Source of the DNA: Deltaproteobacteria bacterium
GTDB lineage: Bacteria > Desulfobacterota > Desulfobulbia > Desulfobulbales > VMSU01
Assembly: GCA_024275235.1 (NCBI GenBank)
Contig: JAJRZN010000097.1
Span: 1-33,829 of the forward strand
Length of the DNA: 33,829 nt
Reading direction: 5' to 3'
Shown here in pieces: positions 2,187 to 33,738 of this stretch (its first letter is position 1; every line of letters begins with the position of its first letter). The notes under the pieces are model-generated. The model was not told where the DNA came from and did no database searches. It worked only from the letters and a program-made list of their open reading frames with translations. The position numbers were made by a program, and so were the translations under genes.

Positions 2187-5100
2187 CTAAACCTTGATGA
2201 CATCCACAAAGGAATCATAAAACGAACAGGAGCCGCCTATAGGGTCAGACAGGCACATATTCTTCACCTGAGAATCAACGGCCATCACCGGATTAGGGCA
2301 TATACCGGTGGCCCGCCGGGCATCACCCTTGATTACTCTGCCGTTGACATTGACATCGCTTGAGCCATAGGCCCAATGCCCAAAGCTCCATGACGCGCAA
2401 ACCGTGCCCGGTCTGATACCCTCCACAACCTTGATTTTACCCACTACATCTTTGTTCGTGCTTGCGGTAACAGGCGTAGTGCCTTTGGGATTATCCGGGC
2501 TGATAAGCCGTACCCGGTCGCCGCGTTTAAGACCCAGGCGCTGGGCGTCTACCGTATTCATCCAGACATAATTCTCTCCGGCCTCGGCCGACATTGTCCA
2601 ATAATCGCTGATGGTACGGGATTGACCGCCCAAAATATGCTTATAGGTAAAGAGATGGAAAGGATACCTGCGGCTGAAGTTCACCATTTTGCCGGCAGCG
2701 TTTTGCACCGCCTGGACAATCGGCATGCCAGGCAGATGTTTGCCGGTCATGCAATGCTTGCCTAATGCCACATCCTCGGCAAAGATGTGAAACTGACTTT
2801 TAAATTGATGACGCATGTAATTACCCTTATATGCCTTTGAGGCTGCCTCAAAACGGCCGCCGCGGTTTAAGACGGTAACCGTCCGCCGCCAGAGGTCTTC
2901 GTCATTCCCCACGGCCTTTTTCCAGTATGATTCCTCGTATACGGCCTTGGTAAGATGGCGGCGGGCATCACGGAATATCTTCATCTCCGCGGCTGAGGCC
3001 GCTTTCACCATGTTCTTGCCGCCCTGATCGCCATAGGCCATATTAGCCGCCATCTTCACAAAAAAATCTTCACGGGCGTTAAAATCCAACCCTGGTCCAA
3101 AACCATTCTTGCCCATGCCTGACAACCCCATTTTTTCACCAATGGCCAGCATAAGAGATTCCATGGAAATGGGTTGCTGCCGTCCGAAGACCGTACACTT
3201 CTCAACCATGGATTCGACCGCGGGCTGCCGCAGTTTACTGGCTTCGGTGATAATGTTAGGGGCCGCATGCGGCGTTCCCCAGCGCTCCCAGATGGCAGTG
3301 TCAGGGAAAATATAATCACAGTACATGGAACTCTCGCCAATAACGATATCATCGGCGAAGAAGAGGGGGATTTTTTGGGTATCCCGGAGAATCTCCAGGG
3401 TGGAGTTGGCCCCCGGCACCGACATCCCCGGTGTTCCCATGTGAAGATAAAGGGCCTTTATGGGGTAGGGATAACCATCCGCCGCACTGGGAATTACCTC
3501 CTGACAGACGTTGCCGGTATAAGGATACCAGGTGCGTTTAGCCGGATAACCAAATTTGAAGAAGAGGCTGCAGTCCTCATAATGCCTGCTTTCCCGGCTG
3601 AGCTTAATACCGAAATGGTCAAGTTTGTCAGGATGGAGCCTGGAGAGATGAAAAGGCCCGTGCTTGCTGCCGTCCTCATGCCAATGGCCGCCGCCCTTGG
3701 TTAGCCCGCCCTTCCAGTCGCCATTACCAACCAGCAGGTTCAGGGTTAGAATCGCCCGGCCGTTATGATAACCATTGGTATGCTGTACCGGGCCGCGGTA
3801 CATATCCGCTACTGCCTGACGGCCGTGACTGACAAATTCTTTTGCTACCTCAATCACCTGCCTAATGGGCAGACCACACTCCTCTGCCCATTGCTCAACG
3901 GTACGCTCGTTGACCAGATCACGTAATACCGCGAAGACCGTCTTATATTTCATACCGTTAATCTCACCCTCAGCGAATAGATCGCCAACAAGCGGTTTAT
4001 TATCCTTCTTGTAGGGTTCAAAGGCCGTGAGCCGGCCGTTAACGCTGGTCAGGAGGTGATGCTCGGCGCTAAGGGCCGCGTCATCGCTGCGCAGGAATTT
4101 CAGGGCGGTTTTACCGTCCTTATCCAACAGAACAAGATGACTGGCATCACACCAGGTAGTATCACCGTTAAGTCTGGCGGCACTACGGTTGGCGGCTCTT
4201 AAATAGGCCTCATTATAGGCTTTATGATCAATAATCCAGCGGATGAGTCCAAAGGCCAGGGCCGCGTCTTTGCCCGGTTTTATCGGCAGCCAGTAATTGG
4301 CTTTGGCAGCCGTATGACTGCAGCGGGGATCGACCACGGCCACTTTCAGACCATTACGGGCCTGGGCGTTGGTAATATATGATGACCAGTTAGTGGGGCC
4401 GAAATTGGCTTCAAAAGGACTGGTGCCGAAAAAAATAACAAATTGACAATTAGAAATATCGGGTTTGAAATGATCCGGGCCGTTTTTGTATTTTTCCAAA
4501 ACCTCCTTAAGGCCGGAATTATATTTACCGCCTATATAGGTGGAACCAAATTTTTTGGTGGCAATATGATGAGACTGTTCACATACCGTGGTATGCTCAA
4601 ACCAGTTTTCCGAGCCTAATGAATTGCCAACCCAACGCTTGGAGAACTCTTTGCGGCCATGTTCAATTCGACCGGCCAGAAAGACAAACTGATTATTTTT
4701 TGGGCCCAGATCCGGAAAATTCGGATCAATAAGTTTGTCAAGATGAGCCCGGTGTTTGGCCTTAAATTGAGCGGCGCTCATCACATTGGCTGCTACCTTC
4801 CCGGCGTCCGCCTTCAGGTTCCGCATCAGTTCAGGATCACGCACTGCCATAATATCCTTCAGGCCCTCCACATGCCCTTCACCGAAAAGATTGCCGCCGT
4901 TAACAATCTCGCTGACGGCCTGATCAAAATCAATGGTAACCCATTTGCTGTCCCCCCTCCTGGTACCCGGTTTACGTTTTAAGACCTTCCTGATCCGATA
5001 TGGATCATACATAGTCTGTACTCCGGCCTGGCCCTTGGGGCAGAGACGACCGTCGTAGAGTACCGCCTTTTCGGGCGGGGTATCATAAGGCAGATGCGGA

Positions 5101-29671: not shown

Positions 29672-29885
29672 GGTTAAAAATGGTGATAATGACCTGTTGC
29701 CGCCCACCGCTCTGGTGGAATCAGAGGGCTTAAGCCAGGAGGTACGATTAGATATTGTTGATCGTCTGCCGGAGGTGGACGATTTTGTTATTGTTCACGC
29801 CGGGTTTGCCATTCACGCCATGTCAGCCGTTGAGGCCCGGAAAAATATTGATCTGATGCGGGAAATGGCAGAGGGCTTGATGTGA
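29640..29885 (+). CDS. hypC: HypC, hydrogenase maturation chaperone
   Basis: An 81-residue OB-fold protein opening MCLAVPMRVVEV; the N-terminal Cys2 binds the iron centre and links to HypD and the large subunit precursor. The C-terminal half (FVIVHAGFAIHAMSAVEA) matches the family. It starts inside the end of hypF behind GGAGGAAG and ends overlapping the GTG start of hypD. An upstream in-frame start would only extend it into hypF. Confidence 0.96.
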   Translation: MCLAVPMRVVEVKNGDNDLLPPTALVESEGLSQEVRLDIVDRLPEVDDFVIVHAGFAIHAMSAVEARKNIDLMREMAEGLM

Positions 29886-30973
29886 GTACCAGAAATAACC
29901 CCCTGGAACAGTTAAACGACGGAGCTTTATGCGCCGCTCTTGTTAAAAAGATCAGCCGCCGCCTCAGCCGTCCCATCCGGATCATGGAGGTATGCGGCAG
30001 TCATACCATGGCCATATTCCGGCACGGCCTGCGGACGTTGCTTCCCAAAGATTTGACGCTTGTCTCCGGGCCGGGCTGTCCCGTCTGCGTGACCTCCCCC
30101 GGCCAGATAGATTCCTTTATCGAACTGGCAGCTATGCCTGATGTCATCCTCACCACCTTCGGCGATCTCTACCGGGTGCCGGGCTCAGAGGGCTCTCTAA
30201 CCCAGGCCGCCGCCCAGGGCGCGGCCGTCAAGATAGTCTATTCACCCATGGAAGCCCTGAAACTGGCCCGGAAACAGACTGACAAAATGGTAGTTTTTGC
30301 CGGTATCGGCTTTGAGACCACAACTCCGACGGTGGCCGCTACCATTATGACCGCGGCCCGGGAGGAAATAAATAATTTTACCGTCTTATCGGCTCACAAA
30401 CTCATGCCGCCGGCCTTAAAGGCCCTCTTTCATGAAGATTTAGCCGTTGACGGTCTGCTTTGTCCCGGTCACGTCAGCGCCATTATCGGCACCGATCCCT
30501 ATGAGACTCTGACTGATGAATTTCATCTGCCCTGCGTGGTAGCAGGTTTTGAGGCCGTGGACATCCTCCAGGCCCTCTTCATGCTTGTCCGGCAAAGTGA
30601 AGAGGGCCGGGCCGTGGTGGAAAACGCCTATAGCCGGGTGGTTAAAGCCGAAGGTAATCATCAGGCCCTGAAGATTATGAATCAGGTATTCAGCCCCGAA
30701 GACTGCCAATGGCGGGGGCTGGGCCGAATCCCGGCCAGCGGTCTGGGAATTCGGCCGCAATACGATAAATTCAACGCCGCCGTCCGCCTGGGCATAAAAA
30801 TCAGAGATGCTGCGGAACCGCCGGGCTGCCTCTGCGGAGAGGTCATAAAGGGGAGGATCAGCCCCAGCCATTGTCCGCTCTTTGCCAGGCAATGCACCCC
30901 GATGAGGCCCGTAGGCCCCTGCATGGTCTCCAGCGAAGGAACCTGCGCCGCCTTTTATAAATTTCAGCTGTAA
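29882..30973 (+). CDS. hypD: HypD, Fe-(CN)2CO assembly scaffold
   Basis: A 363-residue iron-sulfur protein that, with HypC and HypE, builds the Fe(CN)2CO unit. Conserved cysteines are in VCGSHT, GPGCPVCVTSP, and the C-terminal [4Fe-4S] set (GCLCGEVIKG, HCPLFARQC, GPCMVSSEGTC). It uses a GTG start that overlaps the hypC stop (GTGA), so it is translationally coupled. It is the last gene of this hyp block; hypE comes 1.76 kb later beyond the inserted mercury-type operon. Confidence 0.96.
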   Translation: MSTRNNPLEQLNDGALCAALVKKISRRLSRPIRIMEVCGSHTMAIFRHGLRTLLPKDLTLVSGPGCPVCVTSPGQIDSFIELAAMPDVILTTFGDLYRVPGSEGSLTQAAAQGAAVKIVYSPMEALKLARKQTDKMVVFAGIGFETTTPTVAATIMTAAREEINNFTVLSAHKLMPPALKALFHEDLAVDGLLCPGHVSAIIGTDPYETLTDEFHLPCVVAGFEAVDILQALFMLVRQSEEGRAVVENAYSRVVKAEGNHQALKIMNQVFSPEDCQWRGLGRIPASGLGIRPQYDKFNAAVRLGIKIRDAAEPPGCLCGEVIKGRISPSHCPLFARQCTPMRPVGPCMVSSEGTCAAFYKFQL

Positions 30974-31023: not shown

Positions 31024-31347
31024 TCAGTAATTAAGGGCCTCAGAGATGAGCCTGTTCGGTATCATCTTGACGAAGCGACCTGCTTCGTTCTTATATACCC
31101 TTCAGCCTACGCCATACTCTTTTCGTTCCCTTGCTTCCGGCTCCACATCAATCCCGTTTACACGGACAGAGGGAGAGCCGAGAAATCTGGTCGCTGCCGC
31201 CTGTTCCGGGCTTTTAATCACAATGGTTTCCACCCTTGCTTTGATCGCGGCCCTGGCAAGGAGCCTTGCGACCAGCTCCTCGGTATGCTGTCTTGAAGAG
31301 CAGCCTTCAGCTACCAGTATCTCAACTTTTGTTTCCATTACTGACAT
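31024..31347 (-). CDS. Thioredoxin-like selenoprotein, TGA at 31102-31104 read as Sec
   Basis: From ATG 31347 (behind GGTGG) the frame gives KVEILVAEGCSS, a helix, then RFLGSPSVRVNGIDVEP and EYGVG before an in-frame TGA. A normal reading stops there at 81 residues. Reading through gives RVYKNEAGRFVKMIPNRLIS and EALNY to a TGA at 31024, 107 residues. Homologues I recall from mercury-resistance contexts have YGLxCRVY followed by a short tail ending in an I..AL helix, so the TGA replaces the conserved Cys (Sec82). A 7-bp hairpin with AGGUC loop begins 13 bases after the TGA, a convincing bacterial SECIS. The fold is thioredoxin-like; binding or transfer of mercury or organomercury is inferred. 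Last gene of the MerR operon. Confidence 0.82.
31070..31088 (-). promoter_or_regulatory. Bacterial SECIS element candidate
   Basis: On the minus strand ACGAAGC and GCTTCGT form a perfect 7-bp stem around the loop AGGTC. The stem starts 14 bases after the in-frame TGA and the loop GU is about 23-24 bases from it, within the usual 16-37. The E. coli fdhF SECIS has a GC-closed AGGUCU loop at nearly the same distance. Confidence 0.8.
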
Positions 31348-31421: not shown

Positions 31422-31688
31422 TCAGTTGAGTGCTTGTCCAAGCCCGGCGGCTGCAAGAGTTGCCTCATCCGGACCTCGTCCGCCACAGCAGTCAGCAAGT
31501 TTGCCGTTTATTGCCACAGCGGGGACTGAATGAACCCCAAGCTCCCTTGCCCGGCTGGCTCCGACAAGGTCATGCATGTCAATGACACTCACCTCACAGG
31601 ACGGGCAAGCGTTCCTTCTTACCATCTCTTCTGTTTCTTTACACAGGGGGCATCCGGCACTGAATATTTCTATTTTTCTTGTTGTCAT
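31422..31688 (-). CDS. Small CxxC thioredoxin/glutaredoxin-like protein
   Basis: An 88-residue protein from the ATG at 31688 (GGAGGAAG about 5 bases upstream); a longer reading from 31769 adds unlikely residues that overlap the previous gene. The redox motif is Cys13-Pro-Leu-Cys16 after KIEIFSAG. Further cysteines are at 28, 31 (CPSC), 67 and 68. HSVPAVAINGK is the cis-Pro region of a thioredoxin fold. It ends 74 bases before the second selenoprotein. The six cysteines suggest thiol exchange or metal carriage between the membrane protein and the selenoprotein. It has no in-frame TGA. The fold is firm; the role is inferred. Confidence 0.85.
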   Translation of the reverse strand: MTTRKIEIFSAGCPLCKETEEMVRRNACPSCEVSVIDMHDLVGASRARELGVHSVPAVAINGKLADCCGGRGPDEATLAAAGLGQALN

Positions 31689-31716: not shown

Positions 31717-32094
31717 TCAGGCTGGCTTTTGTACTTTTTTCGGCCAACTGTTCCAGAAAGAGGCCGCAATCAACAAAACCAACCCATTATAAAAAAGTAG
31801 CGGTATATCATAAACAAATTTGCCCATTACAATGAATGTGGCAGCTGCAAATCCTGTCCAAAATGGATTGTATCCCCGTCTTCGTTTTGCTCTGTATGCA
31901 AGAAGTCCGACAGATACAAGCAGCGCGGCAATGGTTATCCAGAGCATAATGCTGTTATTAATTAAAAAGCCCAGTCCGACCGAACTGGCTAATCCGGCAT
32001 AAGCCGGCCAGCAAGAAGGTCAGAGCAGACGGGGTAGTAAAGCCACGCCGAGTCCGGGAAGTGTTCCTGACAATTGCGCTATAATTTTTTTCAT
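31717..32094 (-). CDS. MerC/MerT-like membrane protein with Sec-x-x-Cys, TGA at 32020-32022 read as Sec
   Basis: The ATG at 32094 overlaps the merR stop (ATGA). The frame encodes MKKIIAQLSGTLPGLGVALL and PRLL, then TGA, then PSCWPAYAGLASSVGLGFL and continues in the same frame through the hydrophobic C-terminal part (from Met at 31947) to TGA 31717. The full product is 125 residues with about four membrane helices. Homologues I recall from the MerC-domain family read CPxCWPAYAG at this place, so Sec25 replaces the first Cys of the metal-binding CxxC, giving U-P-S-C28. A conventional caller would find only a 76-residue fragment. A strong hairpin starts 7 bases after the TGA. Probable role: uptake or transfer of Hg(II) or an organomercurial across the inner membrane. 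A nonsense mutation is the alternative. Confidence 0.78.
31988..32012 (-). promoter_or_regulatory. Possible SECIS hairpin in the MerC/MerT-like gene
   Basis: GCTGG-CCGGC, loop TTAT, GCCGG-A-TTAGC folds into a 10-bp stem with one bulged A and two G-U pairs. The stem starts 8 bases and the loop 18 bases after the TGA, within the bacterial SECIS range. The loop lacks the usual early G, so this is less typical than the downstream element. Confidence 0.5.
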
Positions 32095-32504
32095 GGTTCT
32101 TCTACCGTGGCTTCAAGGGCGGTCAGGATTGGACACTCACTAACCGGTCCCCTGCCAAAGCATTGACAGGTGAGTTTAGTCAACGCCTCTTTCATTCGAG
32201 TTAAATCTCTAATCTTCAGTTCTATATTATTAATTTTTTCCTCTGCCTGTACTCTGACATCAGCGCAAGTGGCATCTCGGTTTTGGCGCAGAGCCAGAAG
32301 TTCCCCAATTTCACGCAGGGAAAATCCTAATTGCTTGGCTTTTTTGATAAAGCTCAATTTAGCAATTGCCTCTGGTGGATATTGCCGGTATCCAGAATCG
32401 TTTCTCTGTGGTTCTTTGAGTAAGCCGGTTCGCTCATAAAACCGGATGGTTTCCACCCCGATTCCCACCTTCTTCGCTACTTTGCCAATTGTAAAAGTAT
32501 TCAT
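32091..32504 (-). CDS. merR: MerR-type mercury-responsive regulator
   Basis: From the ATG at 32504 the product has 137 residues. An upstream ATG at 32561 lies inside the promoter and is rejected. The winged helix starts FTIGKVAKKVGIGVETIRFYERTGLL, as in MerR. Cys80, Cys115 and Cys124 (CADVR; CQCFGRGPVSECPI) fall at the spacing of the Hg(II)-binding Cys82, Cys117 and Cys126 of Tn501 MerR, offset by two, with an additional Cys113 matching as well. The gene is first in the operon and overlaps the membrane protein gene, so it should autoregulate the whole cluster. Hg(II) is the best-supported inducer; other thiophilic metals or organomercury remain possible. Confidence 0.9.
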   Translation of the reverse strand: MNTFTIGKVAKKVGIGVETIRFYERTGLLKEPQRNDSGYRQYPPEAIAKLSFIKKAKQLGFSLREIGELLALRQNRDATCADVRVQAEEKINNIELKIRDLTRMKEALTKLTCQCFGRGPVSECPILTALEATVEEP

Positions 32505-32542: not shown

Positions 32543-32574
32543 ACTGTAACCCCTGTACCATACTAAAGAGTCAA
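32543..32574 (-). promoter_or_regulatory. MerR-type promoter with long spacer
   Basis: Minus-strand TTGACT (32574-32569), a 20-base spacer and TACAGT (32548-32543). MerR-family promoters have 19-20 bp spacers that the regulator untwists. The spacer contains an imperfect dyad, CTTTAGTA against TACAGGGG, a plausible operator. It lies 38 bases before the chosen merR start. Confidence 0.65.
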
Positions 32575-32730: not shown

Positions 32731-33738
32731 ATGACCAAGAGCATAAATTTAGATCACGGCAGCGGCGGCCTGGCCAGCGGGGAACTGATAACCAGCCTTA
32801 TGAAGCCCTTAAGTAATCCGGCCCTGGACGATATGGAGGATTGCGCCGTCATAGATACAGAAGCCGGACGCCTGGCCTTCAGCACTGACAGCTATGTGGT
32901 TGAGCCGATTTTCTTTCCCGGCGGTTCCATTGGCAAACTCGCGGTTCACGGCACCATAAACGATCTGGCCATGCGCGGCGCGCGTCCCCTGGGCCTGAGC
33001 CTGGGGCTTATTCTTGAAGAGGGGCTGGCTATGGCTGAATTACGGCGCGTAAATTTAGACATAGCCGAGGCCTGCGCCCTGGCCGGGGTGCCGATATTAA
33101 CCGGTGATACCAAGGTCGTGCCCCGCGGCAAGGCCGATAAAATATTTATCAATACCGCCGGTATCGGAGTGGTGGCCGCCGGCCTCAATCTCGGGGCTCG
33201 TAACGTCAGGCCGGGCGACCGCGTATTACTCTCCGGCAGCATGGCAGATCACGGTATCACCATTATGCTGGCCCGCCATAATCTGCCCTTCAGCGGTAAT
33301 CTGCAAAGTGATACCCAGGCTCTGCATCGACTGACCGCGGCCCTGGCGCAGGACATAAGTCCAGAACTCCACGCCATGCGTGACCCAACGAGAGGCGGAG
33401 TGGCCACCACTCTCTGTGAGATAGCTGCCAGTGCCGGGGTTGCCGTGAGCATTACGGAAAGCGCCATTCCTATCCATCCCCAGGTGCGGGTTGCCTGCGA
33501 TCTTCTCGGTCTTGATCCCCTTTATCTCGCCAATGAAGGTAAACTTCTGGCCTTTGTTGAAGAGAAAGAGGCGGATAACGCCTTAAAAATTATGCACCAA
33601 TTCCCTGAAGGCCGGGAGGCCGCCATCATCGGCGAGGTACGTGAGTCCCCGGCCGGACGGGTTGAGATGCGAACCACGGCCGGCGGCCGGCGGCTGGTAA
33701 CGGCCTTAAGCGGTGAGCCTCTGCCGCGTATATGCTAA
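32731..33738 (+). CDS. hypE: HypE, carbamoyl dehydratase for hydrogenase maturation
   Basis: A 335-residue PurM-like ATPase. The N-terminus LDHGSGGLASGELI and the metal/ATP region FSTDSYVVEPIFFPGGSIGKLAVHGTINDLAMRG (in part) are typical, as are MRDPTRGGVATTLCEIA and LYLANEGKLLAFV. The C-terminus ends PRIC: the final Cys is carbamoylated by HypF and dehydrated to thiocyanate. It is in line with hypFCD on the plus strand but separated from hypD by the MerR operon on the opposite strand. HypA and HypB are not in the window. No obvious ribosome site or promoter could be placed in the 170 AT-rich bases upstream. Confidence 0.96.
   Translation: MTKSINLDHGSGGLASGELITSLMKPLSNPALDDMEDCAVIDTEAGRLAFSTDSYVVEPIFFPGGSIGKLAVHGTINDLAMRGARPLGLSLGLILEEGLAMAELRRVNLDIAEACALAGVPILTGDTKVVPRGKADKIFINTAGIGVVAAGLNLGARNVRPGDRVLLSGSMADHGITIMLARHNLPFSGNLQSDTQALHRLTAALAQDISPELHAMRDPTRGGVATTLCEIAASAGVAVSITESAIPIHPQVRVACDLLGLDPLYLANEGKLLAFVEEKEADNALKIMHQFPEGREAAIIGEVRESPAGRVEMRTTAGGRRLVTALSGEPLPRIC

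Follow-up and report, generated by a model that had tools for sequence, protein, structure and literature searches.

The window, i.e. the whole stretch of 33,829 nucleotides that was analysed, carries on its minus strand an operon with the gene order merR–merC(Sec)–thioredoxin-like–DF(Sec), in which two in-frame TGA codons are found, one in the merC-like gene and one in the DF gene. The features of the locus are as follows.

32543 to 32574, minus strand: MerR-type promoter, TTGACT and TACAGT separated by a 20-bp spacer with an inner dyad
32091 to 32504, minus strand: merR, MerR-type regulator of 137 aa with three Hg(II)-ligand cysteines (C80, C115, C124)
31717 to 32094, minus strand: merC-like gene of a predicted selenoprotein, 125 aa with a UPSC motif, identified by the PF03203 match of the read-through product and by 14 TGA-containing orthologs
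32020 to 32022, minus strand: UGA (codon 25) of the merC-like gene, very likely a Sec codon; it is a TGA in each of the 14 orthologs of the class, and its counterpart in all 89 Cys homologs encodes Cys
31972 to 32022, minus strand: putative merC SECIS, with hairpin H1 (32007-31994, loop UUAU), hairpin H2 (31987-31972, loop GGUC) and, as an alternative, a lower helix formed by 32022-32018 and 31981-31977; covariation is among the supporting evidence
31422 to 31688, minus strand: thioredoxin-like protein of 88 aa with a GCPLC motif (PF13192, 36.2 bits, above the gathering threshold)
31024 to 31347, minus strand: gene of a DF family selenoprotein of 107 aa, with its Sec codon at 31104-31102, identified by the match of the read-through product to NF049942
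31070 to 31104, minus strand: DF SECIS, a 7-bp stem with loop AGGUC, 20 nt after the UGA

The genome assembly is a draft in 269 contigs. The mer-type operon is flanked by hypE (32731-33738) and hypD (29882-30973) of a [NiFe]-hydrogenase maturation cluster, both on the plus strand.

The ATG of the merC-like gene (32094-32092) overlaps the TGA stop codon of merR (32093-32091) in the sequence ATGA. The frame meets the in-frame TGA at codon 25, within LLUPSCWPAYAG, and continues to residue 125 and the stop codon at 31719-31717, so that the N-terminus of the read-through product reads MKKIIAQLSGTLPGLGVALLPRLLUPSCWPAYAGLASSVGLGFL.... Starting at the first ATG downstream of the TGA would yield a fragment of 76 residues. 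A first-pass annotation had described the overlap of the start codon with the merR stop, the TGA at codon 25, the 125-residue frame and the 76-residue fragment produced by conventional gene calling, and all these claims held, with the addition that the gene, for which no strand had been given, and the whole operon lie on the minus strand; the second selenoprotein of the operon, DF, had been missed. A further Sec was considered for the last codon of the merC-like gene (31717-31719, KPA-TGA), which lies opposite a C-terminal CPAC motif present in many Cys homologs, and was rejected: orthologs differ in their stops and extensions and no hairpin is found 3′ of this codon, so that this TGA was judged a true stop.

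The read-through product matches the Pfam MerC family PF03203 with 32.6 bits (gathering threshold, 27.6). The scores against the NCBIfam MerC equivalogs (33 of the required 170 bits and 31 of 140 bits) are far below the cut-offs, which makes the protein a distant relative of MerC rather than an equivalog. No match to PF02411 (MerT) was obtained in the read-through product at E-values up to 1; thus, of the earlier definition of the protein as MerC/MerT-like, only the MerC-like part can be maintained. In Sedimenticola selenatireducens (L088), a bona fide MerC (NF033784, 154 bits over a cut-off of 140) is encoded beside a Cys-type member of the present family, and in the alignment U25 falls on the first Cys of the CASC motif of this MerC. 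The two Sedimenticola genes are found side by side at 3559-3894 and 4001-4369, with a MerA-like gene adjoining. The Cys pair that MerC proteins carry next to their first membrane helix is present in the form of UPSC (Sec/Cys), and residues Sec/Cys25, P26, C28, Y32, A33, G40, P77, G81 and W114 are invariant over 53 sequences. The structure model is all-helical, with UPSC at the break between the first two helices; its confidence is modest (mean pLDDT, 68), and a Foldseek search with it returned no solved relative. The protein is likely a member of the MerC family of inner-membrane proteins with Sec as the first residue of the metal site, metal binding and Hg(II) transport being inferred.

The assignment of the UGA to Sec rests on the machinery of the host, on the distribution of the codon and on the pattern of substitutions beyond it. 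Profile matches to selB (379 bits) and selD (376 bits) are found in the genome together with a tRNA-Sec whose anticodon is UCA (73.7 bits, also called by ARAGORN). When 258 genomes from the class were searched, a merC-like match was obtained in 15; 14 of these matches, from five families, are clear orthologs with exactly one TGA each, at the same codon in every case, in the motif UP[SAG]C and without a second stop beyond it. All 14 Sec genomes contain a selB match, which is above the family cut-off in 13, the exception being a match at a contig end; the fifteenth merC-like match (G471) belongs to a distant homolog with 34% identity, from a genome in which no selB match was found. The TGA column is occupied by Cys in 89/89 Cys homologs examined, which come from many phyla and carry the motif CP[AS]C. 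It should be considered that the pattern used in the contig scan fixed Cys at the Sec position and could not return Sec forms, which come from the searches of the class, order and phylum. Downstream of the merC TGA, comparison of closely related pairs gave dN values mostly of 0.05-0.2 and dS values of 0.3-1.7, with dN/dS of about 0.1-0.4 in most pairs; dN being well below dS, the frame past the TGA is under protein-level constraint (purifying selection). A tree built from 53 proteins requires one or two switches between the Sec and the Cys form. Both Sec subclades are represented in the genus of the window, and this points to lateral transfer inside the order. A search for hosts of the merC-like gene on plasmids or viral contigs found none. 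In single loci a gene is split over two frames, merC-Sec in L129 (G521) and merR in L134 (G558), possibly by a frameshift or an error of the draft assembly. As a side observation, the selD genes of relatives (L143, L144 and L145) contain one in-frame TGA each (Sec-SelD), and the selD match of the genome of the window (G000, L142) has no internal stop.

The region following the merC TGA can form more than one structure. A 10-bp hairpin with one bulge, which carries the UUAU loop of H1, folds 7 bases past the TGA (−22.8 kcal/mol; z, −3.2). In the alignment of the 14 Sec genes (48 nt after the TGA), H1 occupies columns 16-29 with a four-base UNUA-like loop and H2 columns 36-51 with the loop GGUC; an alternative lower helix, UGACC·GGUCG, competes with H2. 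Either H2 or this lower helix is more strongly conserved than H1. The third-position pair 18-27 of H1 occurs as UA, GC, CG and UG, and is paired in 12/14 Sec genes vs 38/89 Cys genes (p 0.003). Pair 39-48 of H2, made of two silent sites with T:A and C:G as alternatives, is formed in 14/14 Sec vs 32/89 Cys genes (p 3.5e-6), and the octamer TCGGTCGG is present in 14/14 Sec genes vs 1/89 Cys genes. Over the 14 Sec genes, 193 of 196 base pairs are formed, as opposed to 135±5 after synonymous recoding (about 11 sd). Since H2 and its competitor are counted jointly in this score, and since the 14 genes share ancestry, what is shown is a constraint at the RNA level rather than one exact fold. When compared with the published bSECIS rules (G in the first two loop positions, spacing of 16-37 nt, stem of at least 4 bp, MFE ≤ −7.5, as quoted in PMC13188914), H1 lacks the expected G in its UUAU loop, and H2 has the G in its GGUC loop, but its spacing is 38 nt and its MFE is weak when taken alone. 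The putative merC element fits the rules only approximately, and an Rfam search at the locus gave no SECIS-type match.

Taken together, recoding of the merC-like UGA is supported at the sequence level, and it is very likely that the codon specifies Sec, an inference made in the absence of protein or selenium data. The first-pass annotation had placed the TGA at the first Cys of the family, and this is confirmed by Cys in all 89 homologs. It had also called for a search of the genome for the Sec genes, with the outcome that selB, selD and tRNA-Sec were found, and it had indicated an isolated nonsense mutation as what would refute the proposal, which failed to appear, the TGA being common to 14 genomes. 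The 10-bp hairpin that it had described 7 bases past the TGA also held, but the loop is without the SECIS G and H2 or the lower helix is better conserved; the bacterial SECIS check that it had suggested ended with this H1 and with H2 at 38 nt, within a conserved RNA structure.

The regulator is of the Hg(II) type, as shown by sequence evidence. Its score against TIGR02051 (135.9 bits) is below the cut-off of 150.85, yet it is the highest among all regulator models. The best solved relatives are the Hg(II) MerRs 4ua1 and 5crl. Cys80, Cys115 and Cys124 align with the Hg(II) ligands Cys82, Cys117 and Cys126 of Tn501 MerR, and these cysteines recur in 12-13 of the Sec operons that were aligned. 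A long spacer with a dyad is characteristic of MerR-type promoters, and the architecture TTGAC[TC]-N20-TA..[TG]T with an inner dyad (e.g. CTGTAGTATGGTACAG) is found upstream of merR in most of the other Sec loci.

With respect to the two remaining genes, the thioredoxin-like protein shows weak similarity to the MTH895/ArsE family. The read-through product of the fourth gene matches NF049942, ‘DF family (seleno)protein’, with an alignment that spans almost the full profile (103.3 bits vs a cut-off of 70); mechanical ORF calling ends the protein early, at YGVG. Its SECIS (fold z, −3.9; MFE, −14.7) meets all the bSECIS rules quoted in PMC13188914, and the hairpin is kept in every DF Sec locus examined. 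DF genes from other Sec operons have their TGA at an identical codon position, and in the Sec-merC genomes 7/7 full-length DF matches carry one TGA, 6 of them within the merC operon and one (G461) on a different contig. The predicted fold of DF is thioredoxin/SelW-like (pLDDT, 89; Foldseek best E, 0.003, probability 1.0), with Cys16 and Sec/Cys82 as invariant residues.

Scoring of neighbour genes by tblastn with defined queries showed that the association is conserved. merR is directly upstream of merC in 13/14 Sec loci, and the thioredoxin-like gene is directly downstream of merC in 14/14 Sec loci and in 67/80 Cys loci, being followed by DF in 7 of the 14 Sec loci. In the Cys-type loci the usual place of the DF domain is between merR and merC; at least 46 of these 80 loci (L033-L110) encode it as an in-frame fusion with the MerC-like domain. 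The fusions are about 230-240 aa long, widespread across phyla and usually followed by the thioredoxin-like gene; four of four tested match both NF049942 (E 1e-11 to 1e-14, below the curated cut-off) and PF03203. Thus, the fusion of the two domains provides independent evidence that DF and MerC cooperate. In two loci (L078, from Geobacter argillaceus, and L102) the module is clustered with MerT, MerP and a bona fide MerA, the last scoring above the family cut-off. The operon and the DF–MerC link, as well as the recoding and the Hg(II)-type regulator, are shown by sequence evidence.

The explanation that best accounts for these data, and that appears likely overall, is that of a Sec-containing MerC-type protein in a MerR-controlled metal operon. 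In the proposed mechanism, MerR would detect Hg(II) or another thiophilic metal and turn on its own four-gene operon. The UGA of merC would be recoded in a SelB-dependent manner through the mRNA structure inside the coding region, and the metal would be bound by the Sec/Cys pair, close to where the first helix ends, and transferred by it across the membrane, with UPSC acting, by analogy, as a metal relay in which a selenolate takes the place of a thiolate. The two thioredoxin-fold partners, one of which with a Sec of its own, may exchange metal with the transporter and maintain the selenol/thiol sites in the reduced state. The substrate, the direction of transport and the relay are inferred. 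MerC has a role in Hg(II) uptake according to the published literature, and a MerC-type role in the transport of mercury or of a soft metal is modestly favoured here by inference, without uptake data; for mercury as the specific substrate, also inferred, the evidence is evenly balanced. No canonical MerA was found in this genome, the best match (332 bits) being under the cut-off of 454 and without the C-terminal Cys pair; among the 13 other Sec genomes, a canonical MerA occurs in only two, so that import for reduction is unlikely here. HgcA is found in 5 of the 14 Sec genomes, and neither MerA nor HgcA is a consistent partner across the Sec genomes that would indicate the fate of imported Hg. 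Export, sequestration or a different soft-metal substrate are possible. The early proposal of a mercury transporter exploiting the affinity of selenolate remains an inference, in favour of which are the Hg(II) ligands of MerR and merA/merT/merP in related clusters, against the lack of a canonical MerA here. A bolder reading, which we regard as slightly less likely than not, is that of two cooperating selenoproteins, Sec-MerC and DF, in a MerR-controlled operon, in which mercury or a soft metal is moved or detoxified by selenolate chemistry without a mercuric reductase, and with a SECIS just outside the accepted bacterial rules.

Among the alternative explanations, the one that survives best accepts the selenoprotein but assigns the module to redox or metalloid chemistry (disulfide, As, Se or Te) or to the efflux of another thiophilic metal sensed by MerR, rather than to mercury uptake. 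It is supported by the two thioredoxin-fold partners, with the weak similarity of the thioredoxin-like protein to MTH895/ArsE, and by the lack of MerA here and in most Sec genomes. However, the regulator retains the three-Cys site for Hg(II), the transporter is MerC-like, and some homologous operons are joined to merT/merP/merA; this hypothesis is considered less likely than not, and it stands well behind the preferred one. It is very unlikely, even without a direct alignment to ABB16073.1, that the protein is the already known selenoprotein listed as ‘putative mercuric transport protein’ (PF02411 MerT, C/SxxU): the broad role and the phrase used in selenoprotein lists are the same, but the product matches PF03203 and not PF02411, and Sec is the first residue of UxxC rather than the last of C/SxxU. 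That the TGA is a nonsense mutation or an assembly error in a Cys-type merC, now a pseudogene, would agree with the conventional annotation, with the 269-contig draft and with the frame break in the same gene of L129; however, it is all but excluded by the TGA at the same codon in 14 genomes, without a second stop and with purifying selection beyond, and by silent sites that form a conserved RNA structure. Finally, reading of the TGA as a different residue (Trp or near-cognate read-through) can be practically dismissed, since, although some bacteria recode TGA to Trp, TGA serves as a stop in this genome (in merR itself), selB, selD and tRNA-Sec are present, every homolog has Cys and never Trp at the site, and the SECIS-like structure is conserved.

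With the Sec-containing MerC-type transporter as the preferred reading, Sec-MerC (UPxC) is a selenoprotein family missing from the 2026 (May) inventory of 119 prokaryotic families, whose closest entry is the MerT type with C/SxxU (PMC13188914). The absence of a MerC/PF03203 family refers to this inventory and does not extend to the primary literature on the SAO and Tso operons, so that a prior mention is not fully excluded. In NCBIfam 20.0, no MerC selenoprotein model matches the read-through product. Annotation without recoding would truncate Sec-MerC, and its atypical SECIS may explain why rule-based searches would miss such genes. The uncharacterised DF family gains a functional context, that of a MerC-type transporter, through the shared operon and the widespread fusions. 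Since selenolate is a tighter ligand of Hg(II) than thiolate is, a selenolate in a mercury-type site is chemically striking, and the availability of 14 Sec and at least 89 Cys forms makes the benefit of selenium to a metal transporter directly testable.

When compared with known systems, the putative mercuric transport selenoprotein (PF02411, ABB16073.1) shares with Sec-MerC the prediction of a Sec-containing mer transporter (PMC13188914, PMC9312934), but belongs to another Pfam family, has Sec at another position and is without a DF operon in the descriptions given in the passages of these two papers. The SAO and Tso operons also combine several selenoprotein genes per operon with a metal or organometal theme, but no MerC-type protein is among the families named in PMC13188914. 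DF was predicted as a hypothetical protein by deep-Sep in 2025, in a paper that gave neither a function nor any TGA homolog from another organism (PMC12013277); the fourth gene of the present operon is a member of the same NF049942 family with Sec at the conserved column, whereas here the TGA is found in all seven full-length matches of the Sec-merC genomes and fusion to MerC is common. Finally, MerC of the Tn21 type (PF03203) is likewise a small multi-helix membrane protein with a Cys pair by the first helix and MerR regulation; the protein described here is only distantly similar to it, has Sec in place of the first Cys, and is accompanied in its operon by a thioredoxin-like protein and DF instead of MerT, MerP and MerA.
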